Shown piece by piece: positions 1,261 through 58,631 of a stretch of DNA of 64,000 nucleotides. Location: contig OX235277.1 in assembly GCA_944472155.2 (NCBI GenBank), forward strand, positions 35,412,804-35,476,803, in the 5' to 3' direction. The DNA is from Trichobilharzia szidati (taxonomy: Eukaryota; Platyhelminthes; Trematoda; Strigeidida; Schistosomatidae). The notes below the pieces were generated by a model. The model did not search any database. It was not told the DNA's origin and saw nothing but the letters and a program-made list of their open reading frames with translations. The stretch's first letter is position 1. Every line of letters begins with the position of its first letter. Position numbers and translations under genes: made by a program.

Positions 1261-1289
1261 TCTGAGATCTGTTTATCATCGCAAAGTTG

Positions 1290-15330: not shown

Positions 15331-15339
15331 GGTATGTTC

Positions 15340-18110: not shown

Positions 18111-19860
18111 TTAGGCATTTACATGTTATGAAAACAACACAAAAGACAGCTTAATGAATTGCTTAACAACAAAAACATAATACTGATTCGTCCAGACAAA
18201 GGATCACGTATTTTCATTCTTAATCGTGATGACTATGTCAACAAATTATGTACCATTCTGAGTGATGAAGAAACATTTCAAAAATCACCCGATCAAAAAG
18301 ACAAGACAGAGAACACTGAGAAAGAATTATCAAAAACTTTGACAAAACTAAAGCAAGAATGCGTCATTACTCCATATATGTTTGATCAGCTTAAACCATC
18401 TGGTTCAACTATCCCCCGTTTATATGGTCTTCCAAAGGTGCACAAAGATGATGTCCCTCTGCGACCTGTATTGGATATGCTGAATTCACCGTATCACCCC
18501 ACCGCTAAACGGCTTGCGGAAATTCTGGAACCAGTGAGATTAAATCTATGCGAACATAGTCTTCCGGACACTTTTGACTTTGTCAGTTGTGTTGATGAAA
18601 TTAATGTGTCTGGTAAGCATATGGTTTCGCTGGATGTTTGTTCTTTGTTCACAAATGTACCACTAGTAGACACTATCTACTATCTATGTGAGTTTATTGA
18701 TTCAAATAGCATGAACATTGGGTTACCAACTGAAAATCTTCAACAACTATTATTGAGATGCACACTGAATGTGCAATTTAGATTTAATGATGTCATCTAC
18801 AATCAAAAGGATGGAGTCGCAATGGGGTCTACTTTAGGACCGCTCTTAGCGGATGTCTTCATGGCTAGCTTAGAGAATGGCCCACTAAAGGAAACCATCG
18901 GTAGTTTGTCTATGTATAAAAGATATATAGATGACACTTTCATTGTATGTGACGAAAACTCTTCAACTGCTGAACTTCTTGGAATATTTAATGGTTCTCA
19001 CCCATCTTTGCTTTTCACGGTCGAAGAAGAGTCGAATTCCTCATTTCACTTCCTTGATGTAAAGCTAGACAGAAGAAAGAATGGTACGTTGCTAAGGTCG
19101 ATTTACCGAAAGCCATCATTCACTGGGCAGTACACTAACTTCAACAGTTGGGTACCGTTAGGGAGAAAGAGAAATCTTATTCATTACTTATGCTCTAGAA
19201 TTCGTAAAATCTGCTCTGCAGAGACAATCGATAGTGAACTAGATAAACTTCGATCAAATCTCCTTAATAATGGTTATCCTACAAGGTTTATCGAACGTAA
19301 CATCAAGAAAGAACACGCCCCCAGACAAATTACAGTGCCGAAGAAGAAACTGTTTATGAGTCTGGCATTCAAAGGTGACACCATTTCGGAATTGATTAAA
19401 AGTCGTTTATCTAAATGTATTAAACGTACTTTTCCTGCAGCTGACTTACAACTAGTTTTTACCAGCCGAAATATGATTAGACAATGCGTCAAGGCTAGAT
19501 TACCGCTTTTGTCCACATCCATGTGTATTTGCTCTTTTACCTGCTCTTGTGGAGCTGTTTATATTGGACGTTGTAAGCGTAATCTCCGAAAACGTGTAGC
19601 TGAACACTATCCAGTCTGGTTAATGTAAGGCGAACGTAGAACTGCGAAGTCGTCTATCTGTGATCACCTGTTAGAGTCAGGTCATTTAGCCCCACGTGAT
19701 TCATCTTTCAAGGTTATCCACATGGCAAAATCGAATCGATCCAAAAGTTTACGTTTTCTTCACTTATGCATAGCCGAAGCTTTAGCTATGCATGAACAGA
19801 AACCTAAATTATGTGTTCAAAAACGTTTTGTCAAACCCCTTTCTTTACCTTGGTCGTAGT
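18110..19860 (+). mobile_element. Penelope-like element, 5'-truncated (right arm)
   Basis: Mirror of the left-arm element. The junction with the CR1-like endonuclease region lies close to 18,110. The open RT frame is 18,159-19,628, and the frame continues past a TAA to about 19,858. Confidence 0.75.
18159..19628 (+). CDS. Penelope-like RT with partial GIY-YIG domain (right arm copy)
   Basis: This 489-residue frame carries the full Penelope-type RT signature: DKG, motif A D159, VAMGSTLGPLL, YIDD, and YRKPSFTGQYTN, followed by the start of a GIY-YIG endonuclease. Where the left copy has GPFL, RRENG and VPRKK, this copy has GPLL, RRKNG and VPKKK. The TAA after EHYPVWLM is shared. Because the start lies at the 5' truncation, the ATG is probably an internal methionine rather than a true start. 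Confidence 0.85.
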   Translation: MLNNKNIILIRPDKGSRIFILNRDDYVNKLCTILSDEETFQKSPDQKDKTENTEKELSKTLTKLKQECVITPYMFDQLKPSGSTIPRLYGLPKVHKDDVPLRPVLDMLNSPYHPTAKRLAEILEPVRLNLCEHSLPDTFDFVSCVDEINVSGKHMVSLDVCSLFTNVPLVDTIYYLCEFIDSNSMNIGLPTENLQQLLLRCTLNVQFRFNDVIYNQKDGVAMGSTLGPLLADVFMASLENGPLKETIGSLSMYKRYIDDTFIVCDENSSTAELLGIFNGSHPSLLFTVEEESNSSFHFLDVKLDRRKNGTLLRSIYRKPSFTGQYTNFNSWVPLGRKRNLIHYLCSRIRKICSAETIDSELDKLRSNLLNNGYPTRFIERNIKKEHAPRQITVPKKKLFMSLAFKGDTISELIKSRLSKCIKRTFPAADLQLVFTSRNMIRQCVKARLPLLSTSMCICSFTCSCGAVYIGRCKRNLRKRVAEHYPVWLM

Positions 19861-20669
19861 AATGTTCTTTCTAGTTTTTACTTTATTTTATTTTACCACT
19901 TGAATTCTTTCCACTTCACTTCACATCTTCATTCTTATCGTAATCGTACTGTTATTTTATAAAATTTTTAGACAACACTTGACATTTTTAAAACATTTTT
20001 CAATTCACTTATAAAACAATCTTTAATAATTTTGTAATTTATCCACTTCAACTCTACCCCTTATAACATTTTAATAATTGTTATTCTTATCACATATATG
20101 TATATTGACTGAACAATTATTTAGTGCCACTTAATGACCTTTTCTGTAATATAAATACAACTGTACAGCTTGAAAATGAAGTCGTTGAAAAGAAATTTCT
20201 TCGCTGAACAAAAACTGTGTTTTTACTTATGAATAAATGGGTATTTTTCGTGATTTACATGTTTGACATACCGTTTGTACAGGCATGATCATGTTTGACC
20301 GGAGCAATTGGAAATGGAACACTGTTTTATGACCTGAAAAATTGAAAAATGCTCTGGAAACGTTTAAAGAAGTTTTGATGCTTACTTTAATTGGATAAGT
20401 TAGAAGTCTAAATTTTTAATCTGTAATATACTTACAGCCAGTCAACTTCATGCGGGAGTTACGAAAGTTTGCGTTAATAGAAGGTAAGAGAGGTGATACA
20501 CAGGTGCTAGAGTATGACACACAGGATGCAGAGCTTAGGATCATTATCATTGGACCAATTATTAAGGTCTCGAAAATTTGTAACACTCCACAGTAGAGGG
20601 TAAGGACAGCATTATTTTGGTATTAGCAGATACAAGGGACCAACTTTGCGATGATAAACAGATCTCAGA

Positions 20670-20900
20670 ATGGAATTTGTTCCGTTATTCATCATAGGTG
20701 CTAACAATATTTCGAATATCGTTCAAGTAGTACAAACGCAGAAAGCAGCATTACTGTACTTAGCGCTCCAAAGCAATACCTTCGAAAAGAGAAGACAGAA
20801 GGAAACAGAAAGAGAGGTGCAGAGGCAGCCAGCAAATAATAATAATTTGAACAAACAATATGTGATAACCGCAGGGTTCATTCCCCTTTTCTATTACTAA
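20670..20900 (+). pseudogene. Possible RTE 3' fragment (right arm)
   Basis: Right-arm mirror of 1,030-1,260: 76 open codons ending in a basic tail and an AAT-type run. Only similarity in style to other RTE ends in the window supports the call. Confidence 0.3.
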
Positions 20901-21295
20901 GAGTTTATTGTCATTGAATTTAAGTGTTACATGCTAACGGTTAGTTCAAGTTTATGGTGTCAAAAAGTGTATAATAACAAAATAAAATGAAAAATTAGGG
21001 AGAAACGAATGATGATGATTTTCACACCTATATAGGGTAATGCTGGCAATAGAAACCGAAGAAGTTAAATGCAAACGCCAAAGTACATAAAGTATGTAGA
21101 AGAAAAGAGAAAGTACAGTAATATTTATTTATGCTGTGGTTCTGATATATACAGTAAGATATCCTTCTAAAGTACAATGAGCTTGTTTTCAGAGAGTTTA
21201 TACCCAAGCTGTGGCATCATTATTATTATTTCCTTTAATTACTAGAGGAACATAGGGCTTCAGCCGCGCGTCTCCACTCCGTTCGGTTCTCTGCT

Positions 21296-21540
21296 GGAGT
21301 TTTCACGTGGCTCTAAGTCTGCTCACATGCTTTCATCTCCTCTTCACATGACCTCCTTCAAGTCATCCTTGGATGGCCAACTCACGTCTTCCCTTTCGGC
21401 TTCCACTCGAGCAATGGCTTGTCTAGTGATGTCACTTGATGTCTTCCTAGCGCCAAATTCAAGGTGATCAAGAATTCTCTGACCCCGAGTGGAGGCTCAC
21501 CAATGCATCTCTGTGGGTTGAAGCTACTTTAAGCCTATAA
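21296..21540 (-). pseudogene. RTE-like ORF2 C-terminal relic outside the right arm
   Basis: On the minus strand a broken frame reads VGHPRMT, RRSCEEEMKACEQT and then joins AENRTEWRR inside the arm. This resembles the GRP-TWRR...DR-WR end of RTE ORF2. It differs from the RTE end outside the left arm, so the two outer borders sit in two different RTE copies. Confidence 0.45.
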
Positions 21541-26979: not shown

Positions 26980-27168
26980 TTTTTATTTTTTTATTTCTGA
27001 TTACAGCTTGATGCCACACCGTATTTTCAGTACAAGTATGGCATTTTCAGCATGGATATCGGTAGCCCAAATTTTGCAGGCCGACCATAGATATTGGGTG
27101 TACGTCGGTAGGAGATCGAACCCCGGACCATGTGCATAGTCGGCGAGAGTCCTAACCACTGTGCCACC
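26980..27168 (-). mobile_element. tRNA-derived SINE, copy 1
   Basis: On the minus strand the head has an A-box-like TGGCACAGTGGTTAGGA and a B-box-like GGTTCGATCTCC, spaced as in tRNA genes. A unique body (GGGCTACCGATATCCATGC..) and an A/T-rich 3' tail follow. The same ~190-bp unit recurs twice more in the window, always on the minus strand. It is not a functional tRNA, because no acceptor stem was seen. Confidence 0.75.
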
Positions 27169-27224
27169 AACGCACAAATGTTGCTTAACTTCGGTGATCG
27201 GGCGAGAACCGGTGCTTTCAACGT

Positions 27225-27886
27225 GGTATGGTCACCGACATTGGATCTCCACTCACACCAAAACTAATTAGCACCATTGAATTCACTTATGCTAACATTA
27301 ACCAAACTATCAGAACTCTCAAAAGCTCTAAAGGTATTGGCACTGACGGTATATCATCCTATTTCTATTAATATGGTGGCCCTGACATTCCTTAACTACT
27401 GCTTAAAACATTCGCAATGTCCTTAGAAACACAAACCTACCCTGATATATGGAAAACAACATTTATTATGCCTAAACACTAATCTGGCTCGAAAAAAGAA
27501 GTCAACAACTACAGGCTGATCAATATCACACCTTAAAGCATCCAGAATTATGGAGAGACTAGTTACAAATAACCTACTCAAGCATATGCTTAGTTGCGAC
27601 ATTGTGAGTTTGAACCAACATGGATTCCTAAAATCCAGATCATGTTTAACATGTCACCTAGACTTCTTTAACTTTGTGACCAGCAGTCGTCTCAGACGAC
27701 AACTAGTACTTGTCATCTACTTTGACATCTCTAAGGCATTTGACCGTGTCGACCATTTACTGCTAATACATAGGCTGAACTCCTTAGGAATACGTGACCC
27801 ACTGTTGGGATGGCTTAAATCATTCCAAAACAACAGGTCCCAAGTAGTTAAACTCGGGTCTGTAACTTCCAAACCTAGTCCGATCA
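27225..27886 (+). pseudogene. CR1-like ORF2 remnant, left part (split by insertions)
   Basis: It matches the intact spacer ORF2 from the pre-RT region (FTYANINQTIRTLKSS) through motif A (YFDISKAFDRVDHLL) to SKPSP, at which point it is cut. Several stops are present, including in IPSYLYKHGG and PKHKSGSK equivalents. The remainder of the same copy resumes at 33,203. Confidence 0.8.
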
Positions 27887-28594: not shown

Positions 28595-30532
28595 TTAGAA
28601 ATAAATTGTCTGTACAAATCTTTGTGGCCAATGTACTCGTCTGCCTGATCTTGTGATTCTTTCTGTTTTGTTAGACGGAATATCACCAGATTTTGAATCT
28701 TGAGATGATGTTGATTTGGGTAAACACTCAGTCACCTCTATTTCCATGAAAGCTGGTTTTACGCGATCGATGCTTACAATCTCGTGTTTTCCTCCGCGTT
28801 CGACAGTGATGATTTTGCTTGTTCTGCTTATTACTTTGAATGGTCCGTCATAAGGTGGTTGAAGTGGTTTCCTTACACCGTCGTGTCGTATGAAAACATG
28901 CGTGCAATCTTCTAGTTTTTCAGGCATGTATGCTTGGTTGAGCTGATGTCGCGGTGGGTGATATCTTAAAAGGCTCATATGTTGTCTCAGTTGTTGTACA
29001 AAAGTAGTTTCGTCAGCTGGAACTTCAGTGGCTGGGTTGAAATATTCTCCAGGTAGTCGTAAAGTAGTTCCATAAATTAATTCTGCTGGACAACATTTGA
29101 TATCTTGTTTTATTGTCGAACGTACTCCAAGAAGTACAAGAGGTAATTTATCGCTCCACTTATCATCGTCCTTCACTGCCATCAATGATGCTTTCAGTTG
29201 ACGATGAAATCTCTCCACTAAGCCGTTTGAACTGGGATGATATGCAGTAGTACGTATACGTTTGATTCCCAGTAGTTCTGTGAGTTGTTGGAATAAATAG
29301 CTTTCGAATTGGGCACCTCTGTCTGTAGTAATAATGGTGGGCACTCCGAAGTTGGAAATCCAATTTTGTTCGATGCTCTTTGCAACAGTTTCAGCAGAAA
29401 TATCAGGTAAGGGACAAGCTACTGGCCATCTCGTAAATCTGTCAATACACGTTAAAATGTACGTAAAGCCATTAGATGGTGGTAACGGTCCAACGATGTC
29501 AATGTGTATGTGTTGGAACCTACCATCAGGTTCTGGAAACTGGCCATTAGGCGAAACTGTATGTCGCTGTACTTTTGACTTTTGGCAGGCTAAACATGAT
29601 CTGGCCCACTGTTTAATCTCCCGATTCATATTCGGCCATACATATCGGTCACTTATCAGTTTAACTGTTGCTCGGATGCCAGGGTGAGAAATGCCATGTA
29701 CTTTGGAAAAAACTGATCTTCGCATTTCTAGTGGGACAAAAGGGCGCGGTTTACCTTTGGAAACATCACACGTAATAATTAGGCCTTCATCAAGCATAAC
29801 ATCTTGCAAACGTAAGGAAGTACTCGTGCTATTTTTTATTCTTTTCAGATCCTCGTCCATAGTTTGCAGTCTAGCCATATTTTTAAGATCAAACTGGTCT
29901 TTTTCTAAGGTATTTATATGGATGCGGGATAACGCATCTGCTACCTCGTTTTTATGTCCTTTTATGAATCTAATATCTGAAGTGAATTGAGAAATGAACT
30001 CGAGGTGTCGGAGTTCTCTTGGCGAGTACTTGTCGTGCTTTGCATTCATGGCCTTGGTTAGTGGTTTGTGGTTTGTGTAGATGGTAAACGGTATTCCTTC
30101 TACCATATGACGAAAGTGTTTAACAGCAACATAGACTGCTAGTAATTCTCTACTGAATGCACTATATCTTGATTGAGTGGCGTCTAGACGTTTAGAGAAA
30201 AAGGAGAGAGGTTGCCATTTCCCAGCAGAAAATTGTTGAAGAACTGCACCGACGGCGACGTCTGATGCATCTGTCATAATCGCTATAGGAGCGTTGACGT
30301 CACGACGTACTAGTAAAGTTTCTGAGCTTAGAGTTTGTTTCAGCTTTTCAAATGCCTCGATTGCTGAAGTACTCATGTGCAGCGATTTTGCATGACCTTT
30401 TAGTAGACCTGTCAGAGGTTGGGCCAGCTGTGCACAGTGAGGAATGAAACGGCGATAAAAATTGACGAGACCAAGAAATCTGCGTAACTTTTTGAAGGAA
30501 TCTGGAATCGGGTATTCTTTTATGACTTGCAG
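28595..30532 (-). pseudogene. pol: Gypsy Pol, second part: RT thumb, RNase H and integrase
   Basis: In frame with the first part, beyond the TAG. It holds the end of the RT ([14 protein letters not shown]), RNase H ([16 protein letters not shown], and [15 protein letters not shown]), then the integrase. The integrase has an HHCC zinc finger (H227, H231, C261, C264 counted from the Met at 30,376) and a catalytic DDE triad (D293, D352, E388, in [16 protein letters not shown] and NGLVERFHR). The C-terminal domain has [21 protein letters not shown]. No chromodomain was recognised. Translation would need readthrough of the stop. Confidence 0.9.
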
Positions 30533-31810
30533 CTATTCTGCTATTGGTCGAATGCCTTGATTGTCTACCTGATGTCCCAAAAATTTTATAGTTTTCTTAC
30601 CGAATTCACATTTACTTGGTTTAATGACAATTCCATATTCGGCTAAACGTTTAAAGAGTGTTTCTAAGTGATGTTGGTGCTCCTCAGGGGATTTACTTGC
30701 AACCAGTATATCATCGATATAAGCGTAAGTGAATGGGAGGCCGTGCAATACCTGGTCAATGAATCTCTGAAATGTTTGCGCTGCGTTAGTCAAGCCAAAT
30801 GGTAGGCGGACGAACTCAAATAAGCCAAAAGGAGTGGTTACCGCCGTTTTGGGGATGTCCTTGGGCTCGAAGGGTATATGGTAGTATGCACGAACGAGGT
30901 CAATTTTGGAAAATATCTGAGCACCTGCCATGTTATGGAAAAAATCGTGGATGTGCGGAATTGGGTATCTATCTGCTATCGTCTGCTTACTTAAAGCTCG
31001 GTAATCTCCACATGGTCGTATCTCTGATGAGTTTTTCTTTGGTACCATATGCAGTGGTGATGACCATGGGCTGTTTGACGGTCGTATTATTCCTAGATCT
31101 AATAATCTGTTGAACTCTGCTTTTGCTATTTGCATTTTAGCTGGATCTAAACGACGTGGTTTTGCTGAGACCGGTGGACCTTTAGTTACAATATGGTGTG
31201 TTACGTTGTGTTTGAGAGAGGCTGTGGAGTAATCGCTCTGTGTCAGTTCAGGAAATTTCTTTAGCAAAATATCGTACCTGGATAATTGATCTGTTGTGGC
31301 TACCATCAAGCGAATACTCTCGACATCTGTGGAGATGCCTGAAATCGATAGTTTACGACTGGTATCTATCAATCTATGGTGACTAGAGTCAACTAGCAAT
31401 TCGTAGTGTTGAAGAAAATCTATTCCAATGATAGGAAAGGTTACGTCGGCGACTACGAACTCCCACTCAAATGGTGTACTGCATCCAAAATTAAGTTTTT
31501 GCCTCCGAGTTCCAAATGTTTTTATGGTAGAATTGTTCGCAGCCTTGAGAACTAATGCTGGGTTTGGTTGTAAGCGTTCGTTGGGTGTTGGGGGAACTAC
31601 ACTAATTTCTGCACCGGTATCTACCAGGAATTGTGCCCCCGTTGTTTTGTCTGTCACCCTGAATAGACGGCTGTGGGACGTGTGTTGGCCAGCGACCGCA
31701 GTCGTCACCGACCGCCGGCCTTTTCGTTTCCCAACGCCACCGTTTGTTGGAAAGCACAAGGTTGTGTGCACCGTTTTGCGTGTACCCCAAATTTGCGGTG
31801 ATACCAGCAC
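30533..31810 (-). pseudogene. pol: Gypsy Pol, first part: protease and reverse transcriptase, ends at a premature stop
   Basis: A 425-codon frame. The aspartic protease motif LVDTGAEIS lies at 62-70 (active site D64). The RT follows with [27 protein letters not shown], motif [13 protein letters not shown] (D304), [15 protein letters not shown], and the catalytic YIDD (364-367). A TAG at 30,533-30,535 interrupts the frame after QGIRPIAE. The same frame resumes immediately ([12 protein letters not shown]) and stays open to 28,595. This single nonsense codon is the only break I see in pol. Catalytic residues are otherwise intact. Confidence 0.9.
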
Positions 31811-32577
31811 ATATTCTCTTGTAAGCTATATTTACGCCTATTGCATGAGTGGCTACGCTGTCTTCTGTACGTTGTTTTAGGTTGTCTATTAACCCTCATT
31901 GCCATTAATTGCTCAGTGAGGACGTCGATTTTACGTTCTAAGGCTTCTATGCGTTCGTTTGACGTTTTGTCGACTCTGATGGCTTCTGCTTCATTCAGTG
32001 GGTCTATCGTGATAGCTTTATCTGGTATTCTGCTAGTGGAAGCGACAGATTGAGGTGTTGACCTCTCGTACATGCGATCCGCGATTTCGGTGAGCCTTTC
32101 TATGTCAATGTCGTCGTCTCCGAAAGCAAGAACCTGCTGGATGTTTTGAGGAAGTCGTCGCAGCCAGATTTGATAAAAGAGACGTTTATCGATTTCTCTT
32201 CCTGCAACTAGGCTTTGCATATGCCTCATGAGTTGAGATGGGGTTTTATCACCTAACTCAACATTGCTTAACAGGCGATCGAGTGCTTGCCTATCTGAAA
32301 GCGAAGTGCATCTCAGTACCTCTTCCTTCAACTTGTCGTAAGGCGCTTCTGTGCTGGGATGAACGATGTATTGCCGTACCTGCTCGGCGACTTCGTCTGG
32401 TAGCACTGTGCTCAAAATGCCAAATTTAGCTGTCTGTGACGTGAGCTTATTGCTAGCCAAATAATGTTCCAGTCGAGCAAACCAAAGATGAGGGTCTCTG
32501 GGCTTAAAAACTGGTACAGTAAGAGAGATAGTACTAACAGATCCCAGCTCTAAGTTATCAGAGGTATTGGAAGACAT
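31705..32577 (-). CDS. gag: Gypsy Gag polyprotein
   Basis: About 290 residues if translation starts at the ATG at 32,577 ([11 protein letters not shown]). An open extension of 34 hydrophobic residues upstream (to 32,679) lies in the leader and is less likely to be coding. The capsid-like part contains [17 protein letters not shown] and [15 protein letters not shown], typical of metazoan gypsy Gag. A predicted coiled segment ([16 protein letters not shown]) and a basic [12 protein letters not shown] region follow. The C-terminal [13 protein letters not shown]...C cluster is an unusual zinc-knuckle-like arrangement. The 3' end overlaps the pol frame by ~106 nt in another frame, so a frameshift is expected to make Gag-Pol. 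The frame is intact. Confidence 0.85.
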
Positions 32578-32828
32578 GTTACAATTCGTAAAAAAATGGT
32601 TTAAGAGTAACAAAATAGCAAAATTTGTGCACAATAAGAATATGGCAAAACAGAAAAATGCAATGCAGGTGCTTACCACAAATTACTGCAGGTTGTGCGA
32701 TGAGCAAACACAAGAATGAGTTCGGAATATGTAATAAATATATAGATCCACGAAGGTTAAAGTTTTATTAATCCAACAAGTGTAACAACGCGTCGAGGTC
32801 AAAAGTCGTCGTCGTCGGAGTCAGCAAG

Positions 32829-42163: not shown

Positions 42164-42214
42164 GAAACCAGGCGAAACACGATTACCAAGAAGATGAAGA
42201 AGAAATAATCATTG
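42164..42214 (+). other. Micro-exon, 51 nt (upstream cassette)
   Basis: Bounded by TTTTTTCAG and GTGAGT. In phase 1 it reads NQAKHDYQEDEEEIII, very acidic. It is identical in sequence to exon 4 of the 48-59 kb gene. Confidence 0.65.
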
Positions 42215-42610
42215 GTGAGTCCAGAATAAAAACGCTGACCTGATTGAATAGAACAAATAACAAATATATCTGTTGGTAGAAGTTATAATTGATGGTCCGG
42301 CCATTGAATTCCATCCCAGAGAATCGATGGCCTACGAGCTTTCCTTGTGACCTGAATGTACTGGGTTCGATCATCGGTGCGGTGACTGCTGTATATGACT
42401 TAAAGTTGTAGAGATAGTATGAAACAAACTCCATGTACTACATGCTTTCCAGCGGTTCTGGAACCGTAGTCAGTTCGCCATCAATCTTGAGAATGAATAG
42501 GGGAAACATGTGGGGCGGCGCGAAACCAAATTAAGGAAACCACTTTAAAACACAGTTTATTAAACTTAACAATGGCGTCTCTAAATGTATGTGCTGTTCA
42601 AATTCTTTAG

Positions 42611-42658
42611 GACGTACAGTGATCTCGCTGAAGGAGGATGGTCTAGGAAACACAACAG
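42611..42658 (+). other. Micro-exon, 48 nt (upstream cassette)
   Basis: Bounded by TTCTTTAG and GTGAGC. In phase 1 it reads RTVISLKEDGLGNTT. The counterpart at 55,515 reads RPVVSRKEDGLGNRT. Both retain an N-x-T sequon. Confidence 0.65.
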
Positions 42659-43224
42659 GTGAGCCCAGTTCATTCTCTGTATGCTCTCAGATCGCGACAT
42701 ACACGCAAATAAATTTCCCCTCACACACATTCAGTCATCACCATACTCAGGGAGTGTTACACACACATATTTAGCTGCAAATACGTACTTCCATTCGAGG
42801 CCAGAATGATTTCGGTCAACGTCATCGTTTCCAGTTTGATCATTGGCGTCATGATGCATGTCTGTATGTGTGTGAGTGAGTTGGTGCGTGTTCGCACATG
42901 TAGGCAAGTTTCCGTTTGTTAACGTGGTGAAAGAATGAGATACAGCGTCGGAGGCTGATGTTGAGTCCACTGGTCAAGGCAGACTTCGTGCTTGACGACT
43001 TCATTTTCAGTCTCGGATTTTCCAGAATGGGTCATTTCTCACGAGTGTGGAACATTTCATTTGGATGTGTTGCCTGATAAGTTGTCATTATGAAAAATAT
43101 ACAAATAGGTGAGTTCGACGCCTGTTAACCGTTCGGCCGTCGTAAACCTTGCAATACAAAGTTGATTATCATTGTCAATTTCTTAATGCCGTATCCGAAT
43201 GCTTGTGATTTTCACTTTCTTCAG

Positions 43225-43278
43225 AACCTCCAGTTACCAGTGCAAAGAAGATGGCGTCGGCTGTAGAAACCGCGACGC
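43225..43278 (+). other. Micro-exon, 54 nt (upstream cassette)
   Basis: Bounded by CTTTCTTCAG and GTGAGT. In phase 1 it reads PPVTSAKKMASAVETAT. Its counterpart at 56,129-56,182 has lost the acceptor AG. A tandem relative of this exon at 43,911-43,958 has lost the donor. Confidence 0.65.
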
Positions 43279-44439
43279 GTGAGTCCAGTTCATTTCTCAC
43301 CAATTATTGAATAAAAGAGACTTTGCGTCATTTGTATGCACTGCGTCACTCGTGAGACTGAATGGGTCAGTAATAACATCTGCAAGTTGATTTCAGGTCA
43401 GATATTCTGGTCACGTATGTTCTTGTTATATATATATATATGTGTAGGAGGGTTAACGAAGGAGTGTAGATGTATTTTGAATGTGGGTGTAAAGCTTTAT
43501 TTCATCTTTAGAATGACAGAAGAGAGGCAAAAATTCAGGTGTTTGAGAATACTACTGTTATATTCGGTAGAGTTCTGCTAGGATGTGATGATCAAGCAAA
43601 TGTCAAATGATTGCTTGTCGGCCGAATGAAAGCCATGGAGGAGTTTACTGAGGCTAGGTATTAGACAAATATAAGTAGATAGATATGCAGTCGATGTGAA
43701 AATCATTACTCATGAGAATGATGTGATTTTCAGAAAGTCATTGTAAAAGTATACACACCCAAGAAAAATAAACACGCTGCAGAGATCTAGGATAAATCAG
43801 TAGACAAAGAGTGACGTGGCGATATCTTCACAGTCAAGTCAAACATCATACTTGAAATGATGCATTTGTCGATTCCTAATTCCAATGAATTTGATTTTCC
43901 CTTTCTTTAGAACTCCCTGTTGCCATGGCGAAGAGGGCGACTGTAGGAACCGCGAAACATGAGTTCAGTTTATTGCTTCTCAATCTCACTGATGATTACA
44001 CAGCCACAGTTAAATTCTGTATTGAGACTCACCCATAATGATGCAACCTTGACTAGTTTACTACCTGGCTGGTTTTGCAACCGTTCTCAAGCCCGGGTAA
44101 ACACTTAGGGTAGCACGTCACAATGTACACCTTACCATATGAAAATTCAACAAATAAGAAAAAGAATAAAAATACACAACAATTGAGAAGTAAACTTATT
44201 CTTCCCTGGAATCGTAGAAGTGAAGTGACGCTGGCTGCTGATAGCCTTCGGAAAACCAGTCAGCCAGATGAATTTTCTTCTCTCGATGGAAGCAAAATCA
44301 AGCATGCAGACGTGGAATGTTCACGTAATGCACGAACCTGGAAAAAGCTGTCCAGGTAGCCAAGGAAATGAGAATATATGGTAAAGAAATGGTCAGAATC
44401 TGCGAGAGCAGGTAGAATGGATGTGAACCAACCGAATTG

Positions 44440-48070: not shown

Positions 48071-48119
48071 ATGTTAATCCCTCTTCACGTCAAATTCTTC
48101 GTCGTAGTTTTTATATACA
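48071..48119 (+). other. Exon 1: start codon and signal peptide
   Basis: ATG at 48,071 opens MLIPLHVKFFVVVFIY, a short basic-hydrophobic signal sequence, then a donor A|GTGAGT leaves phase 1. Joining to exon 2 gives an Arg codon and RRRVTFW. A longer open frame running past the donor has no recognisable content, which supports splicing here. Confidence 0.6.
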
Positions 48120-51100
48120 GTGAGTTTTCGTGCAATTTTTCAACAGCATTTTTAATGTTCATGCTTACAATAACCACAGTGTTTCAAAATGGACATCTGT
48201 TAACACGACGCTTTTATAACGGATTAAACCGAGTATGTAGGGATTATACTAAGAACGCGATTACCCGTAGACGGATATTTCAGTTTAAATAATTTGTTAT
48301 GGTGAAAGATATTATTAACAGTTAGGGGTATTCATTAGCCTTCACTGCTTTCTTTGATTGACTGAAGGGTGTGTAAATTGAGGTGGCTCACAGTTTTCAC
48401 TACTAGACGGTTGCAAACAATCGGATTTGCATCTAGATGTCCCATTGCACCTGAATACATCAGTCACATTCTTGCAGAATGTCAATCATGAGTCCGAATT
48501 GGTCATTGGTAAGGTATTTGACCGGAGAATGTGGTGCTGACGCGAGGTCAAGTCTCAAATGGGACATGAATTGTATCTAGGGTGTGAGATTCGCCTTGCT
48601 GGAGAATTCCAGAGCATATTGTGTACTTGAATGATCGGAATTAATTAACATTAAACCCAAGGACGAGAAACATGATATTGTTCACTTCCCAGATTAGGAA
48701 ATAGCTGAGAATGGACTAGAATGAAAGTTTGATTGTGATTGTCCTGGTCTAAATTGTTATCCAGTTGCATCATTTTCATTACACTATGTGTTTTGTGGTG
48801 CCATTTCAAGAATTATTTTCGTTGAAATTAGAAACGTGTTAGACATTTTAAACATTGTACAGCGTTGCTTTTGCTGCTTTATTAGTCGCCTTTCTGGCAC
48901 AAGAAGAAGTTGACTGTTATAGTCCTGAATATCTCCAAGGCAATGCTCAAGGACGTAAGTCTTCCGTATTTTGATATTTGTCATTAAAGTTTGCATAATT
49001 TGAGTGTATTTTGATTTCGAAAAAGACATTGGTTTGCTCATTATTTGGTAGCGTGTATGTGAGATGTTTGTGATTAAACCGGAGCACAGTTGCCGCGCGT
49101 TGTTTCGTGTAACAATAAATGAAACCTGGTATGATACTACTGGTTCAGTTTACGACTAGAAGAAGTTGATTGCTGAGAAGTACAAAGCCCAGGTTTCATG
49201 CGTACATGGCCTCCCAGGGAACTGACCTCGCGTGAATGGTTCACTGGTAGAACGTTCGCTAATCATGCACTCCTAAACCTCGGTCATCATACTGTGGTGC
49301 GCCAGTTAAAGAGGAACGCTTAAGTGTAGGACTGGCTACCCCAACCAGGTGAATATGCCACTGTTAATGATTCCCCATAGCTCCAGCTTCAGTCAGTATG
49401 TTCCACTCGAAACACAAGGGAATGCAGAAATGCACTTGTTAACAGGTTGCATTACCAGACTTCGTAGACATCATGTTCACTTCAGATTCTGGTGTGATTT
49501 GTTCTCCCTTGACGTCAAATAACACAAAACATTGCACCATAATCTGTAGCAGTGTTGTGCTGCTTGAGTATGCTCACCACACATGTGGATGCCTACCACT
49601 TGAGAATAGACAGTTGAATTATTAATTATGTAGGAATGGATTGGTAAATCCGGTTGAAGCAGTGTCGATTACAGCTCGTTTCATTTTCTGTTCTATTTCA
49701 ATGGCAGATTGTGACAGAATCAGTCTGTTTTCAGACATATTTCAAGTGGTATTGCTTTTCAAACTGATTGTGTGATTCGAATAGTAAATGCAAGAGAAGG
49801 CGTTCGGCGAAGAATGAATATCTTCAGCCATGTTATTCTCAAGCTGTACAATCGCAAACATACATACATACAGCTATTTAACCAATAATCTTAGCAACGG
49901 AAATAGTATTTCTGAATATGAGTCCTCAATATTGTAAATTTTGAGTCAGGAATTACGCCATGTTGAATGCGTTCATTAGGTGGAAACTGAAATAAAATGA
50001 AATAAGTTAGTTGACTAACGTGATATAGTTGAGGGTTGAGTGGATTTCAACTGAAATCGCATGAGAGTTGAGTTTGGATTGCAATGTGCATCCAGTGATT
50101 CACCTATTCCTATGGAGACGGGAGTGTCGGCTGTACCCAGCGTTCGCTACCTAAACGTATCATACAATACTTACCATCGTGATTTAACATAGGAGAGAAT
50201 AGATCTCCTCGCCACATCTCCATCCTGGAACACTTGAAGAAATCTAAACAACAATCTCATCCACAAAAGAACTTCAGAATTATATTGAGAATGCGTGGGA
50301 ATCTTGCTGAATGACTACGAATCAAACTTCTTCAAACCAAAGAGGCAGTGGCTTTTCACATGTTAAGTCTTCAACTATTCAAACGAAAGAAGTTAGTTCA
50401 ATTAATTAATCTGCACTGTATATGATCTATCTGAATACACGACAAGTAATTCTTGTGTTTTGGCTTCTTGGTTGTATTGTTTTCTTCCATAAATCCCTGC
50501 TTAATTTCTCCTCCTCATACCACTGCTGCTAACTTGACTCTCGTTCAACTTTAGTTGAATGCTCCTCAGCACCCTCAACTATATTGCTTCACTAAATTCA
50601 CTAAATTCGATTCTACTTCAGTTACACCCCAATTCACGCTTTCTACATCACGTAATTAGTTATCTGAAGTTCGCAATCTTAGTAAGACACCTTTGTATAT
50701 GTGCCATTCGTTGATACGATAATTCACATTGTACACATGCGATTGTACAGCTTGAGAATAACTCCGCCGAAAAGATTTACTCTCCGCTGAAAGCCTTCTC
50801 TTTGTGTGACCGAATGAGTATTTTTAAATGGTAAAGAGCTAAGCGAAAGTACACTACAAAGTCTCCGCTACAATAGAAGCCTGTAAACGTTTCTTCTGAC
50901 TTGCCAAAATCACACAAATTGCAGAATAATGACTGTTAAAATCAGCATGACTGTATCCTATTCTAATACATCTGAATGGTTGTAACAACACTGAATACAG
51001 CACGCTAGTCCAAAAGTTACACTCTCATTTTTAAGTAACACTTTCTTGTAAAATCCTTTCTTTCAGGAAGACGTGTAACATTCTGGCTTCTTCAAGAGAA

Positions 51101-54100
51101 GACGGACTCCCTAGTATTCGGATGGAATCAGTTTGTTGAACAAGGCATCGAATACCTGGTATTGGAACGAGTAGTAGATTGGGCTTTAGATGATACCGTC
51201 AACGTCCTCTCTGGTGATACAGAAGAAATACATGTAATCGGGCAGTCATGCAAACCTGAAAAGTATAATATAATTGGAAAGTCGAAGGGCTTTGTTCTTT
51301 ACTATGACAAGGCAAAGAGGAGTCTAACATACATTCGAGGTGAGTAGATTGCGCGCCACAAACATCCACGAACATTCAACAGTCTACAGTTGACACAAAA
51401 TAGTAAAGTAAAATGCATGTTCTCAATTCACTCATTTTTAAATAAGAACGCTTCTTAACGAATGCACACACATACATGTTATCACCTGCCACGGTTTTCC
51501 ATCAAATGCCTTGCACATACAAGCCTATGTCTGAAAGTGGTTTGAAGACACCACAGCAGCCACTTGTAGTCACCTGGCATCCGACGCCCTGCATTACTCT
51601 GATACGTGATTTCACATATCTAACTACTAACCGATGTTAGTAGCTAACATTTGTAGGCATTTCTATGACTTTTCAAAACATCATTAGGCTGTGAGAACTA
51701 AACAGGAAGTCGAGAAAACAATATGCTTTGTTGCCTGGAATCTTATATCTAGTTTATATTACACAGGTATTCTTGTTCACTTCAATATTTAACATGGAAT
51801 ACTGACCATTTGCATTCCATTCTCTTTTCTGTTTCCAGTTCCAAGAATAACAAATGTCCATCTTCCACTGTATACAGATGCATCGCCTTATTTAACTTGG
51901 AAAACAGACGAGTCATTTTGTTCTGAAAATGACGTGATAGTGATTTTCAGAGGATACTCTGACCAGCCGCTTGAATTGCACTTCATACCAAACACTGACA
52001 AGAACTTTTATTTAGAAAATCAAGGGAACAGTGAAGGGATAACAGAAGAAGTAATAATATCCACATTGCATGGGGAACGTTTCTCCTTACCAAAACTGGG
52101 TAAGCATTGTGAAGTGCACTTTATTGATCGGGAATAACCAGTTGATTGCTTTTATTTCTTCTCCGTGTCATTGCATGCGAACTTGTTGTGCTGACCTAAT
52201 TTCGTTCGTTGAAGTACTGTGTTATATGAAAATATCAAAGATGAACTTCAGATGATCTCTGATATTCGGTGAATTGTGTGTCAGTCATGAGGGCAGATAG
52301 CTTAGTGGTAACATATCTGACTACACCTCTGGGTGACACGAGTTCGAGTCCCAGAGTGGACGTATGTCACATCGATGCATCAGATGCACCTTATTGAAAG
52401 TGCTAAGAGCGAAATCAAGACACAGCAATTCCAGTCTCGACGGCTTCCAATCATTTAACTAAGTGTTTAATTTGAGAATTGGAGTTGTCATACGTCAACG
52501 TATTCTAATGTAAGACTACATTGTATCGTGCTGTAGATGAATCGTTTGCTAGTTCATGAAGTTGAACACTTGTCAGAATGAAAGAGATTGATTTTCTCAC
52601 GAAAATATTGATGAATGGAGAATCGCTACATTGAATTATAAGTAAACAAAGACGAAACAGTGAAGAAAACGTCTTGGATAAAAATTCCAACAGTGTATAA
52701 TGAAATAATGATGAGATCGTAGAGAGGAAACCAACTTGTTCAACGAAACACTAAGCGACTGAGTAGATGGTCCGAAGTAGCATCATGGTCGTCAGGAATC
52801 AACAGATATCATCACTCGTTGACAGAAGTTGGGGAAGTCAACACGAATGAATGATATAAAGCTGAACACATCAGCTTGGCATCATCGGTGGTTTGCTTAA
52901 CTAGAACACAATAGAATTCTGTTTTACTCTTAAATCTTGCAGATGAAACACAGCTAAAACATCTGTACACAGTATGAACATGTTGTTCAGAAGAAAGATA
53001 TAAATACATATTATCTTGTACACGTATGAGTGACAGAATGTACAAAGCTGTTATAAAATGGGAAAGAGTAAATTGAGGAGAAATGTAAAGCAAGTAAAAT
53101 GAATACAAGTGACGCTGAGTTACACACAAAGTTTTCGAGTGGAAGCAGATGCAAAAATGCGCTATATACACATATTTATGTACATACAAATAAATGTAAA
53201 TTATTTGTTATTTAATCCAAGTAACCAGAGGAGGCGAATCGAATGCGCAATCACACAGTCATGACAGAGGTGAGTTCGATTTCATGAGTTTATATGTTTA
53301 TGTACATAAATGTAATTTACTGCGTTATTTATCTCTTCGCGTTCCCAGTGTAATATGAAGCTTCACGCTTGAGCTTTGAAGTTCCAGTAGGAGTGAAGTT
53401 TCTTTTCACAGAGTTGGGATGCTAGACTGACACCCAACCATGTCTCCCACTGCGCTCACTGTCGACTAAACGAGGTTTGGTAGTGCGTTGTCCGGAGATC
53501 AAATCCCCAACCACGTGCGATGTGTTCAGCAATTACTCTACCACAAAACCACAGCCCCACACTCAATGTACACTACGAGAATATAAATAATTAGGAAGAT
53601 TTCGGGAGAATAAGCCGTTGTTGGCAGTGAATGTCAGAAGTCAGACGAAAGTTGTACAAGTGGCAGTCAAGTATGAATATATGCGAGAAACACAATGACA
53701 AACAATTATGTTTCTATTTCACATATAACTACCAATAAATATGTGACTGCTTTTATTAGCGCAGACAACCAGATTGTGCTTCAGCATTTCCTGAAATGCT
53801 CTATTCCGAATGACTCACCTTAGCTTTCCATCTACGGAATCTACTCCGTGCCCAACAAATCAAACAGCTGAAAGTACTGGTCAGTACAGATTTGAATCTC
53901 CTGATTGAGCAAACACATCAGGATTGATTTCAGCCGACCACAGTAGGCAAATATGTGAAATTCTAAGGAATAAAGACTTGATTCTGACACACTCTGATAA
54001 AGGTTCTGGCATCGTCTGGATGAATCGCCAAGACTACGTGGATAAAATGTTATCTATCATATCAGATGGAAACAAATTTTCTAAAGAAAATAACCAGAAA

Positions 54101-57100
54101 GACTAAACGGAACAAACTGAAGGGAGGATAACACAAATGCTGGAGAATATGAAGAACGAATTGATGATCGTCTCTGAATTATTCGAGCAAATACTACCCT
54201 CAGGTTTCGTTATTCCCTGGTCATACGGTCTACTGAGAGTGCACAAATAGAACGTACCAGCCACTACGTCCAATCCTGGATAAGACACATTTTTGAAATC
54301 ATGCTACTGCAAAATGGCTCGCAGACATTCCCCTACCTATCAGAAATACGCTCTGTCATTGTGGTTATATTGGCCGCAGAAAGCGCACACTTTCCAAGCG
54401 TATCTCTGAACATTAACCTGCATGGTTAGCTTATGGACAATACAAGGCAGCTACTAGCTCAATTTTCGAGCCCTTGGTGAACGCAAATAAAAACGCAAAG
54501 AAGTATTCCAGAATCTAAAATACCTCGTTCTCCATATACTTTAATTATGACACGGATTACACGAGAAAAGCTGCATACGAACGTTAGTGTTTCTCCTGCA
54601 ACTCTCGAAATATTCGTCTCACTGAGACCAGAGATAGACAAGCCGAAGCAAGAAGTTAACTGTTCAGAATACGAGATATGCATTTAGAGATGAGATTAGT
54701 CGAGCAATGAAGACTGTTTAGCCAGCTAGCATTCGTTCACGAATCACCGAATATAACATGACAATGTGCGAAATAGCCTGGATACTAGATCCCTTAACCT
54801 ACGGATAACAAGTTGACCTATATACTGATTATTGAAAATCTTTCCATTTCCCTTCTTCGCCATTTAACCTAATGATCGACTACTCTATATTATTACAGGA
54901 GACTTACTACATTCTTAAGCTTGTCAATAGCACACAATGAAGTTAGTGATCCGATAAATTAAGCGAAAGAGTGGAAGTGATTGAGAATGAAACGTTGTTC
55001 ACATAAATAGAGATATTAACATGCATATATTAAACCACGAAACACTATTTTCAGGAAACCAGGCGAAACACGATTACCAAGAAGATGAAGAAGAAATAAT
55101 CATTGGTGAGTCCAGAATAAAAACGCTGAACTGATTGAATAGAACAAATAGCAAATAGATCTGTTGGTAGAAGTTATAATTGATGATCCGTCCATTGAAT
55201 TCCATCCCAATGAATCGACGACCTACGAGCTTTCCTTGAAGGTACTGGGTTCGATCATCGGTGCGGTGATTTCTGCATATGGCTTAAAGGTGTAGAGATG
55301 GTACGACACAAACTCAACGTACTCCTTGTTTTCCAGTGTTTCTGTAACCGTAGTCAGTTCGTCATCAATCTTGAGAATAAATAGGGGAAACATGTGAGGC
55401 AGCTCAAAGCCAAATTGAGGAAGTCACTTTCTAACACATCCATGTATATATTTGTACAGTTTGATAAATTTATCAATGGCGTGTCTAAATATATGTGCTG
55501 TTCAAATTCTTCAGAACGTCCAGTGGTCTCGCGGAAGGAGGATGGTCTAGGAAACAGAACAGGTGAGCCCAGTTCATTCTCTGTATGCTTTCAGATTGCA
55601 ACATACACGCAAATAAATTTCCCGTCACACACACATTCAGTCATCATCATACTCAGAGAGTGTTACACACACATATTTAGCTGCAAATACGTGTTTCTAT
55701 TCGAGGCCAGAATGATTTCGGTCAACGTCATCGTTTCCAGTTTGATCATTGGCGTCACGATGCGTGTCTGTGTGTTGGAGTGAGTTCGTGCGTGTCCGCA
55801 CATGTGGGCAAATTTCTACTTGTTAACGTGGTGAAGGAATGTGATATAGAGTCGGAGGCTGATGTTGAGTCCACTGGTCGAGGCAGACCTCGTGCTCGAC
55901 GACTTCATTTTCAGTCTCGAAGCTTCCAGAATGGGTCACTTCTCAGGGGTGCGGGACATCTCATTTGCATGTGTTGCCTGATAAGTTGTCATCATGAAGG
56001 ATACACCAGCAGGTGAGTTCAACGCCTGTGATCCATATGGCCGTCGTAAACTTTCAAATACGAAGTTGATTATCATTGTCAATTTCTGAATGTCGTATTA
56101 AAATGCTTGTGATTTTCACTTTCTTCGGAACATCCAGTTGACACTGCAAAGAAGATTGCGTCGGATGTAATAACCGCAAAACGTGAGTTCAGTTTATTTC
56201 TTCCATGTTTCCATGAAGGTGACCAATTAATAACCACGTACTGCTTTGAGACTCACACAGATTTTTTCAACCTCACCCACATTACTTTCCGACTAATTTT
56301 GACTAGGAAATCAGCAGATATATTTGAGAATTGGTCAGAATCCGCGTGAAGACTGAAAATGGATGTGGACAAACCGAATTGTCAGCCAGATCGTCAGTAA
56401 TCTACTCCAGTCTGATCACTCAAACAACAAACACGAGCACACTGTGGCAGTGATCACCTGTCATAATGTCACCAATAGCAGCCAGATGAAAAAGCACTGG
56501 GAATCAGTCTCCTCTTGCAGCATTATAACACCAGGATTAACTCAAAAAGAAAGGAAGGAAAGAAAGGAGGAAGTAAAGGAGGTTACAATCATCTGATGCT
56601 TCACACCTACAAACAACTCGAAACAAGAGCAGAAAGCAGATTTCAATAGACAACTACAATATATAACAGCAATGGACAACATCGGAGATGGAGATGTCAA
56701 AATCCTCATGGGCGATATGAATGCAAGCCACACTGGGAGCAGACAATACGGGAGGAGAACTCATCATGGGTCGAGAGGCTTTCGAAGAAATGATTGTCAA
56801 TGGAGAGCTGAGTGCCTTCAGTGATTTGGTGATCGGAGTCAGTGTGTACAACCACACCGATATACACAAAGCAAAGTTGCATAGCACTAAGACAGTGAAG
56901 TCAGGGATACGACTTCACGGATTAAAAATGAAGCAAAGTTTCTTCTAATATCATTCCATTTAGCAGTAAAAATGAAATAGAAATACTGAGAAGAACAACA
57001 AAACAAATAATGCACAGGGAAGTCAGGCAAAATAACAAAATTCCCACCGTCAGACCACAGTTAAAATGGTCATCACCAGAAGAAAAACTACACAGAATGC

Positions 57101-58631
57101 GCCTCACAAAACAACAGAGAATGAAAACACAAACAAAATAAATTGAAACTTTCCAGAAGGAAAGAAAGAACAACGAATAAAACACCACTGAAAAACCAAA
57201 AGAGTGAAGAAAAATAATTGAAACCAAATAAGAAAATAGGGCTAACACCGACCGTGACAAGCACAATCTGTTCGAGTGCATGTGTTTGTTGTATCGTATG
57301 TGAGTGGGTGATCGCACTCACTGAATCACCAGTCATCAACACTTCACATCTTTGTCAAAATTGACGTCAGCAAATAACAGGCAGCCTTAACATTCACCTG
57401 TCGTCATCTCTGTCCTCACGAAGAGGAAGAGTGTAGTTTATATTGATTGACACGCCGCCGATTCACTCACTACACTCGTCACACTGCTTTCTTTTTCAGA
57501 ATTCCCACAGACGACAAACATAGAGAAGGAAGAAGTCCAGTCGGCGTCGACAGGTGAGTATATTTATTACTCACACTCGCTTGTGTACATTACAGGATCA
57601 CTGGCTTTTCACAAATACACAGACCGGCACACACACAAACCATTTCAGTAGAATCTCCTCAGATTTTGTGTTGTTCACCTGCATACATGATGATTTCGCG
57701 TCCGAAATATTTCCACATTTCAGCGTGATCAATTTTATTTATTCAGTTTGATTTCTATGAGTAATGTGGCATTCACTCTCAACATCAGTCATCCGGAATC
57801 CATGAACAGTACGCCAAGCAGCGTCTGTGCTTCCGACAAGCACTGATCGATTCTCTGTTACGTCAATGGAAATTTATCGACTATTCGGAAGGAGACTGCT
57901 GCGAATTGACTTCACTCTGAGACAAATTATCAAATTATCTGCTGTGGATCGCTGTCATCAATGGGCTCAATGAAATCACATTACATTCACTTTCTGTCAG
58001 TCTTTCGAATAGAATGTCCAATGAGTCGGTCGAGGTTGGGGCGTCACTCCACATATTGCCATTCAAGTGTGAAGTGCATGAAGATACGCACGTGTACATG
58101 TAGACAGGTTATCCGCATTCACCTGGCAACTAGAATTGAAGTGAGATACAGTAGACACGTTTCCACTGGCATCATTGCATATGTGAATGACGGTTTTCTA
58201 CTGAAATCCACTGGTGTTGTTATTTTATTTTATTTTTTATTTTGATTTACAGCTTGATTCCACACCGTATTTTCAGTACAAGTGTGGAATTTTCAGCATG
58301 GATATCGGTAGCCCAAATTCAGGCCGACCATAGATATCGGGTGTGCGCCGGCAGGGGATCGAACCCCGGACCATGTGCATGGTCGGCGAGAGTCCTAACC
58401 ACTGTGCCACTGAACGACATGACTGTATTATATTTAGTGATATGTGACAATGTGTGATATGATGCTGTCGATTCATCACATGTGAAATTAAAAATGATCC
58501 AGTTCCTCTTTTGTTTTGATTCTCCTCCTCCAGGTATCATTATAGCAATAGTAGTCATATCAGTTTTGGCGTTGTTCGCCATTCTCTACTTCTCCTATAG
58601 ACGATGCTGCAAACAGAAATCAGAGAAATAA
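48071..58631 (+). CDS. Predicted 286-residue type I membrane protein built from phase-1 exons (novel micro-exon gene)
   Basis: Exon model: 48,071-48,119; 51,067-51,339; 51,839-52,099; 55,055-55,105; 55,515-55,562; 55,986-56,012; 57,500-57,553; 58,534-58,631. Every internal junction is phase 1 with a GT donor and an AG acceptor, and the 861 nt join without a stop. The order is signal peptide, two domain-sized exons, an acidic/basic micro-exon stalk of about 60 residues, a transmembrane helix and a short basic tail. Only one cysteine lies in each domain exon, so a classic disulphide-bonded Ig fold is not obvious; phase-1 single-exon domains would also suit FN3-like folds. It is probably on the cell or tegument surface (inference). 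AATAAA lies at 59,117. A 54-nt exon at 56,129 is left out because its acceptor is GG. Family unknown to me. Confidence 0.65.
50738..50800 (+). repeat. Copy of the short dispersed motif
   Basis: Reads GCGATTGTACAGCTTGAGAAT, then CTCCGCCGAAAAGATTTACTC and CCGCTGAA. It is inverted relative to the copy at 49,801-49,865, 0.9 kb away. Both lie in the long first intron of the membrane-protein gene. Confidence 0.45.
51067..51339 (+). other. Exon 2: first extracellular domain, 91 codons
   Basis: Flanked by CTTTCTTTCAG and GTGAGT, and 273 nt exactly. It reads RRVTFWLLQEKTDSL, WNQFVEQGIEYLVLE, VIGQSCKPEKYN and KGFVLYYDKAKRSLTYIR. Alternating hydrophobic patterns suggest a beta-rich domain. There is one Cys only. 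No match to a family I can name. Confidence 0.7.
51839..52099 (+). other. Exon 3: second extracellular domain, 87 codons
   Basis: Flanked by TCTGTTTCCAG and GTAAGC, 261 nt. It reads PRITNVHLPLYTDASPYLTW near the start, which resembles the first strands of an FN3-like fold (P-x-I-x-V ... LTW). It continues VIVIFRGYSDQPLELHF and EEVIISTLHGERFSLPKL. There is one Cys. The fold is a guess. Confidence 0.7.
52284..52362 (+). repeat. tRNA-like SINE head, second family
   Basis: TAGCTTAGTGGTAACATATC fits an A box and GAGTTCGAGTCCCAG fits a B box, about 35 bp apart. There is no acceptor-stem pairing, so it is not a tRNA gene. A weaker relative lies at 48,500-48,565 (TGGTCATTGGTAAGG ... GAGGTCAAGTCTC). 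Confidence 0.5.
53480..53560 (-). repeat. tRNA-like SINE relic
   Basis: On the minus strand TGGTTTTGTGGTAGAGTAATTG (A-box-like) is followed by GGGGATTTGATCTCCGG (degenerate B box). A divergent tRNA-derived relic in the third intron of the membrane-protein gene. Confidence 0.4.
53920..54690 (+). pseudogene. Internally deleted Penelope-like element
   Basis: It begins with KDLILTHSDKGSGIVWMNR (the DKG block) and runs to LLRVHK. It then skips the whole RT core to CGYIGRRKRTLSKRISEH and PAWLAYGQYKAATSSI, which is the GIY-YIG region. Stops are frequent. Its 3' part is shared with 41,280-41,510. It lies within an intron of the membrane-protein gene, sense strand. Confidence 0.75.
55055..55105 (+). 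other. Exon 4: micro-exon, 51 nt
   Basis: Acceptor TTTTCAG, donor GTGAGT, phase 1. It encodes the acidic NQAKHDYQEDEEEIII. Its sequence is identical to 42,164-42,214. Confidence 0.65.
55515..55562 (+). other. Exon 5: micro-exon, 48 nt
   Basis: Acceptor TTCTTCAG, donor GTGAGC, phase 1. It encodes RPVVSRKEDGLGNRT with an N-R-T glycosylation sequon. Confidence 0.65.
55986..56012 (+). other. Exon 6: micro-exon, 27 nt (or end of a 98-nt exon)
   Basis: With acceptor GATAAG, the 27 nt read VIMKDTPA in phase 1 and keep the frame. Alternatively the stronger acceptor TTCATTTTCAG (55,908-55,914 region) would give a longer exon that reads SKLPEWVTSQGCG... for about 28 codons and stops at TGA. That would yield a protein lacking the membrane anchor. 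Both options are preserved in the upstream cassette. Confidence 0.45.
56380..56890 (+). pseudogene. RTE-like retrotransposon remnant, copy 2 (truncated)
   Basis: It holds the same endonuclease region as copy 1 (TPTNNSKQEQKADF, ILMGDMNASHTG) and is cut off at about 56,880. It lies in the intron before exon 7 at the same position relative to the micro-exons as copy 1, so it predates the duplication of the cassette. Confidence 0.75.
56890..57240. other. A-rich stretch without gene
   Basis: Purine/A-rich on the plus strand and probably the end of another repeat. No coding signal. Confidence 0.4.
57500..57553 (+). other. Exon 7: micro-exon, 54 nt
   Basis: Acceptor CTTTCTTTTTCAG, donor GTGAGT, phase 1. 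It encodes FPQTTNIEKEEVQSAST, a Thr/Glu-rich stalk segment. Confidence 0.7.
58221..58410 (-). mobile_element. tRNA-derived SINE, copy 2 (in last intron of the 48-59 kb gene)
   Basis: Same family as 26,980-27,168, with the best-kept B box (GGTTCGATCCC, minus strand, about 58,354-58,364) and A box (TGGCACAGTGGTTAGGA). It sits between the 54-nt exon and the transmembrane exon of the host gene, antisense to it. Confidence 0.8.
58534..58631 (+). other. Exon 8: transmembrane helix, cytoplasmic tail and stop
   Basis: After acceptor TCCTCCTCCAG the phase-1 frame reads a ~22-residue hydrophobic helix (IIIAIVVISVLALFAILYF), then SYRRCCKQKSEK and TAA. The positive residues just after the helix fit a type I orientation. 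The CC pair could be palmitoylated (inference). Confidence 0.75.

Follow-up and report, generated by a model that had tools for sequence, protein, structure and literature searches.

The window analysed here, a stretch of 64,000 nucleotides on contig C7 (OX235277.1:35412804-35476803) of the 1.11-Gb genome of Trichobilharzia szidati, contains a gene for a candidate surface protein of 331 residues. The gene consists of 10 exons and, as proposed in an initial annotation of the window, every junction is in phase 1 (9 of 9). We estimate the probability at about 70% that it is an apparently functional member of a clustered Trichobilharzia multigene family that encodes a type I membrane protein built from phase-1 exons. 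Judged from the protein matches, the family appears to be new and is so far confined to Trichobilharzia, a genus of schistosomes of birds that is also responsible for human cercarial dermatitis (PMC4465651).

Protein diversity through micro-exons is already known in schistosomes, as described for the micro-exon genes (MEGs; PMC5825161) and for the mucins (PMC2576457). New here are apparently folded head domains on a stalk of one-exon units, which are amplified in sister genes, where multiplication of exons could allow for many variants of the surface protein.

Exon structure and predicted domains

The initial annotation had joined 8 exons into one frame on the basis of splice signals and phase. 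The AG/GT boundaries and the phase-1 junctions of this open chain were confirmed throughout, and the coordinates given for 4 of its junction ends, 48,119, 51,067, 57,553 and 58,534, were exact. The chain is 18 nt longer than had been reported, and encodes 292 residues instead of 286; a 27-nt form of exon 6 would explain the gap, whereas the annotated protein P0001 supports the 45-nt form. Furthermore, the chain was incomplete, in that annotated relatives indicated 2 additional phase-1 exons, 1b (48886-48954) and 3b (53222-53269). Counterparts of both were identified in P0001, the product of a downstream copy, and a counterpart of exon 3b was also found in P0007 of T. regenti. Without exon 1b, the leader leads directly into RRRVTFW. 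With exon 1b included, position 48,119 of the window most likely joins 48,886 instead of 51,067, as in the initial annotation. A direct junction of exon 1 to exon 2 is nevertheless present in the annotated paralogue proteins P0002, P0008 and P0009. The corrected gene comprises the following exons, in window coordinates.

48071..48119, + strand: exon 1, with the start codon and the N-terminal half of the apparent signal peptide, MLIPLHVKFFVVVFIY; ends in phase 1 at donor GTGAGT; counterpart in P0001
48886..48954, + strand: exon 1b, second half of the apparent signal peptide and mature N-terminus, AFLAQEEVDCYSPEYLQGNAQG; 69 nt, phase 1-1
51067..51339, + strand: exon 2, putative head domain of 91 residues that defines the family; phase 1-1
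51839..52099, + strand: exon 3, predicted fibronectin type III (FN3)-like domain; phase 1-1; absent from P0003
53222..53269, + strand: exon 3b, micro-exon, TRGGESNAQSHSHDR; 48 nt, phase 1-1; matched in P0001 and in P0007 of T. regenti
55055..55105, + strand: exon 4, 51-nt micro-exon for an acidic part of the stalk, NQAKHDYQEDEEEIII; phase 1-1; matched in P0001 and in P0007 of T. regenti
55515..55562, + strand: exon 5, 48-nt micro-exon of the stalk, RPVVSRKEDGLGNRT; phase 1-1; counterparts in P0001 and P0007
56138..56182, + strand: exon 6, 45-nt micro-exon of the stalk, DTAKKIASDVITAK; phase 1-1; single here, with a related exon that occurs 67 times in a paralogue
57500..57553, + strand: exon 7, 54-nt micro-exon of the stalk, FPQTTNIEKEEVQSAST; phase 1-1; single here, with a related exon that forms arrays of 27, 23 and 11
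58534..58631, + strand: exon 8, predicted transmembrane segment, short basic cytoplasmic tail RRCCKQKSEK and stop codon

The best 20 residues of exon 8 had a mean hydropathy of 2.96 in a hydropathy scan, and the N-terminus is hydrophobic, as read by eye from the translation. It was also noted by eye that read-through into the intron after exon 3 (just past 52099) would yield GKHCEVHFIDRE followed by a stop codon. The C-termini of P0007 and P0006 resemble, again by eye, intron read-through past exon 3 or past a relative of exon 4 (the exon that ends at 55105 in the window), and these ends could reflect either mistaken gene prediction or a short form that is secreted.

Structure prediction of exons 2 and 3, which the initial annotation had recommended, yielded a fibronectin-III-like sandwich for exon 3 in a model of low confidence (predicted local distance difference test, pLDDT, 46 to 69 in the exon-3 part). 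The best folds listed for the head model were nearly all FN3 domains or FN3 domains of cytokine receptors, a list filled by exon 3. The joined protein, in an earlier version of 306 amino acids, had no match in Pfam at its curated cut-off, and no Pfam family was listed for exon 2 or exon 3 when these were searched alone. A search of 3 exon-3 sequences at a limit of E 10 gave no Pfam FN3 profile among the matches, with HMMER filters that discard most weak matches. Sequence comparison with the PDB gave no credible match, and exon 2 had no recognizable relative outside the family in Pfam, the PDB sequences and the protein databases searched. The protein searches gave matches to T. szidati and T. 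regenti only, all of them unnamed or uncharacterized proteins, by a method that requires shared 5-residue words and that distant Schistosoma relatives could escape. The absence of a matching named family, as initially claimed, is thus borne out by the Pfam and PDB comparisons, with the qualifications that the downstream copy was already annotated, as an "unnamed protein product", and that exon 3 is predicted to be FN3-like.

No description of the family was found in the literature at the level of titles and abstract beginnings, a coverage that excludes subscription papers and preprints. Two candidate links were dropped: the literature search gave nothing to link the egg protein CP391S to the window gene, and no relevant paper was found for the idea of a hypervariable schistosome cluster resembling the major histocompatibility complex.

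Tandem copy, paralogues and micro-exon arrays

A search of the genome with exon 2 gave at least 18 matches, which without exception lie on C7, from 32.69 to 35.49 Mb. Nine of the 18 fall in a contiguous segment of 321 kb that was examined here, 4 more were available as short pieces only, and the other 5 are located outside the sequence examined. Within this segment, exons 1b, 2 and 3 were flanked by an AG and a GT at the phase-1 positions in 9 of 9 copies each. Among the 36 copies of exon types 1b, 2, 3, 3b, 4 and 5 that were located by tblastn in the 321 kb and checked, AG/GT were present at the phase-1 positions in 35, as compared with 0.4% of random positions. The sole miss was tested at the wrong length, and a GT is present at its proper end.

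The exon order of P0001 (365 amino acids, T. szidati) is that of the window gene, with additional units of the exon-6 type. Its exons map to a tandem copy located 22 kb downstream of the window gene, in which the exon-6 type is present twice. In P0007 of T. regenti, counterparts of exons 2, 3, 3b, 4, 5 and 1b were recognized by eye. Because the exon chain is repeated in the annotated protein of the tandem copy and partly in another species, the window gene is not a chance reading of splice signals.

The duplication spans much of the introns, with about 83% to 96% identity in the aligned pieces, and some intron stretches are without a counterpart. In total, 723 of 8,100 aligned intron sites differ between the 2 copies, and the divergence is 6.8% in 105 well-aligned bins of 100 bases. 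No differences were observed in exons 1b, 3 (0 of 261 sites), 4 and 7. Exon 5 differs at 1 of 48 sites and exon 3b at 3 of 48, while the numbers are 10 of 98 for exon 8, 10 of 49 for exon 1 and 33 of 273 for exon 2. For exon 6, 13 of 39 sites differ in an alignment that is unsafe because the downstream copy has 2 such exons. The intron bins that flank exon 3 contain only 1% to 4% differences, and since the identical exon is located within a stretch of such low divergence, conversion is possible. Conversion may also be the reason why the divergence of exon 2 exceeds that of the introns. With 0.113 nonsynonymous (dN) and 0.207 synonymous (dS) substitutions per site in exon 2, we make no claim of positive selection.

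In 3 pairs of annotated proteins, the two members are distinguished by the presence or absence of entire phase-1 exons, and the frame is kept in all of them. Exon 3 is the sole difference between P0001 and P0003, a single 18-residue unit separates P0004 from P0005 (the gene for which was not found in the 321 kb examined), and several consecutive stalk units distinguish P0002 from P0008. These proteins are database annotations that may correspond to real RNAs.

Relatives of stalk exons 6 and 7 were found repeated in tandem, in arrays that contain 67, 27, 23 and 11 copies, and AG/GT is present in every copy. The search patterns for the arrays included the splice sites, and patterns restricted to the exons gave identical counts, with no copy lacking AG/GT. 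The longest array belongs to a paralogue that begins at 35256609, and consists of 67 relatives of exon 6 spread over 53 kb (C7:35193470-35246819, minus strand). These are 54-nt phase-1 exons, 60 of which are identical, with AG/GT in 67 of 67, and they are located in repeat units of 798 to 819 bp that are 96% to 100% identical to one reference unit. The lone type-6 match without the AG/GT of the 54-nt form was located at 35491237, in the downstream copy, where the acceptor is that of the 45-nt form. Past the 67-copy array there is a further module with its own first exon (C7:35192072, minus strand), the donor of which has moved out of phase 1, and 2 gene units may therefore now read as one. The annotated protein P0008 joins the modules on both sides of the array and omits the array itself.

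Another paralogue on the minus strand has a single recognized first exon, at 35404486, followed by 5 modules of exons 1b-2-3. Micro-exons of the exon-7 type are located between and after the modules, both as singles (35397663 and 35389570) and as the arrays of 11, 27 and 23, to a total of 63. The protein P0009 matches this paralogue, using the first exon at 35404486 and 5 exon-2 modules, and includes exon 3 once, exon 1b 3 times and exon-7 units twice. Pfam matches on P0009 (DUF7349, ToxB_N and others, 3 of them above the cut-offs) were read as repeat sums and set aside, because no single stretch passes alone. A transmembrane exon was sought for this paralogue and not found; a hydrophobic candidate at C7:35314625 was unrelated and was not accepted. 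Two blocks of 30 kb (C7:35314747-35344999 and 35345532-35375711), each with an exon-7 array and a head module, are 99.1% identical, and an assembly error is therefore possible in this region.

Orphan copies of 3 stalk exons are located in the window, 4 to 6 kb upstream of the gene.

42164..42214, + strand: orphan copy of exon 4, AG/GT intact
42611..42658, + strand: orphan copy of exon 5, AG/GT intact
43225..43278, + strand: orphan copy of exon 6 in the 54-nt form

Matches to exons 2, 3, 7 and 8 were looked for beside the copy at 43225..43278, and none was found. An exon-like remnant was noted at 43916-43948, and no head or membrane exons were recognized there.

Proposed mechanism and alternative explanations

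We propose that the signal peptide is split across exons 1 and 1b, and that the protein would display a head, formed by exon 2 and the FN3-like exon 3, on a flexible stalk of the one-exon units 3b, 4, 5, 6 and 7, followed by the transmembrane exon with its short basic tail. Since all internal exons are phase 1-1, the frame would be preserved if splicing dropped any of the stalk units, the FN3-like domain or a portion of the signal peptide. Unequal recombination between intron-exon units of 0.8 to 0.9 kb would multiply a stalk unit, with the frame likewise safe. Splicing may thus provide a choice of head and stalk parts, and recombination may account for the growth of the arrays. The protein would probably be placed at the host-facing surface, where its use would be variation in stalk length and head. 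The initial annotation had suggested that any cassette could be skipped or duplicated in frame. This applies to the sister genes, in which exons are omitted in annotated proteins and duplicated up to 67-fold, whereas in the window gene itself exons 6 and 7 are single.

If the arrays are spliced variably, the family would be a testable system for the phase-neutral growth of exons by tandem duplication, and would show how a worm with an unchanging complement of genes could diversify its surface. A more tentative idea, which we consider rather doubtful, is a combinatorial, Dscam-like surface repertoire, in which 5 interchangeable heads and 63 stalk micro-exons in one gene, along with the 67-exon array in its neighbour, would enable any head to be combined with a stalk of any number of units; read-through that joins units across gene borders would also be frame-neutral.

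The family works like the MEGs and the polymorphic mucins of Schistosoma mansoni (SmPoMuc), yet it departs from some of the features by which these are defined. As described in PMC2576457, the SmPoMuc genes form a clustered family with a 27-bp exon 2 in tandem units of about 1 kb that are more than 93% to 94% identical; the genomic copies of this exon do not exceed 20 per gene, and transcripts contain it in variable numbers, up to 100. Each gene has 15 exons averaging 60 bp and an intronic hammerhead ribozyme. The family described here is similarly clustered, with a short in-frame exon in tandem repeats of about 1 kb in the paralogues, although exons 6 and 7 of the window gene are single. The arrayed exon is, however, 54 nt and present in up to 67 copies, compared with 27 bp and no more than 20 copies in SmPoMuc, and the window gene has only 10 exons, including 2 large head-domain exons of 273 and 261 nt and a transmembrane exon. 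No hammerhead ribozyme was found in the whole window or in 5 of 34 loci of the sequence examined at the Rfam gathering score, a threshold that leaves weaker matches aside.

It is highly improbable that the window gene is a true MEG. These genes are described as having short symmetric exons, long introns, variants from alternative splicing and secreted or membrane-anchored products (PMC5825161, PMC10526429), and the window gene resembles them in its short symmetric exons, which can be skipped with the frame kept, its long introns, its apparent signal peptide, its predicted membrane anchor and the whole-exon differences between its relatives. About 80% of the MEG coding sequence is in symmetric exons of 6 to 36 bp according to PMC5825161, a range that holds none of the 10 exons of the window gene; by that measure it is therefore not a MEG, although it works alike. 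The looser range of 6 to 81 bp given in PMC10526429 would admit 7 of the 10 exons, but these account for only 36.5% of the coding sequence. The gene is dominated by 2 large exons that each hold a whole head domain, and its micro-exons are 45 to 69 nt, which sets it apart from the MEGs in their published descriptions.

An ordinary family of extracellular FN3-type receptors would have obtained its phase-1 exons by domain shuffling; the whole-exon differences would then be prediction noise and there would be no variant repertoire. Extracellular modules are usually encoded by exons in phase 1. As in the FN3 modules of receptors, exon 3 alone encodes the module, with phase 1-1 ends; it differs from them in having no Pfam FN3 profile among its matches, and its fold comes from the low-confidence model. 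The annotation is also uneven, with P0006 and P0007 seemingly ending in intron read-through and P0008 omitting the 67-copy array. Still, arrays of 67, 27, 23 and 11 micro-exons with all splice sites intact would be unexpected in such receptors, 3 protein pairs are whole exons apart, and we find this explanation unlikely. The same can be said of the possibility that the downstream gene is the active one and that its duplicate in the window is silent or in decay. The closest database record, P0001, derives from the downstream copy and no record derives from the window copy, orphan micro-exons remain upstream (42164-43278), and in one paralogue the first exon no longer has a donor in phase 1. Yet all 10 exons of the window gene are open with intact splice sites, despite an intron divergence of 7% to 9%, and exons 1b, 3, 4 and 7 are unchanged. 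That the large arrays are assembly artefacts appears less likely still. The near-identity of the two 30-kb blocks speaks for it, as does the 94% to 100% identity of array units to another unit of the array in which they lie, but the length and sequence of the units vary along the arrays; the window gene is independent of them, and the exon-6 type is already present twice in the downstream copy.

Other features of the window

A perfect inverted repeat was noted at positions 631-7975 and 13955-21299, with arms of 7,345 nt that show 100% complementarity and are located 5,979 nt apart. The arms hold mirrored open reading frames of 489 and 174 amino acids that by eye are retroelement-like, and the repeat is either a recent event or an assembly artefact. 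Long open reading frames on the minus strand (8848-12141, 12045-13628 and 28595-32679) resemble, by eye, a non-long-terminal-repeat reverse transcriptase element and a Ty3-type element. A match to 5S rRNA at 27138-27239 on the minus strand (50.1 bits) was the sole Rfam match in the window at the gathering score.
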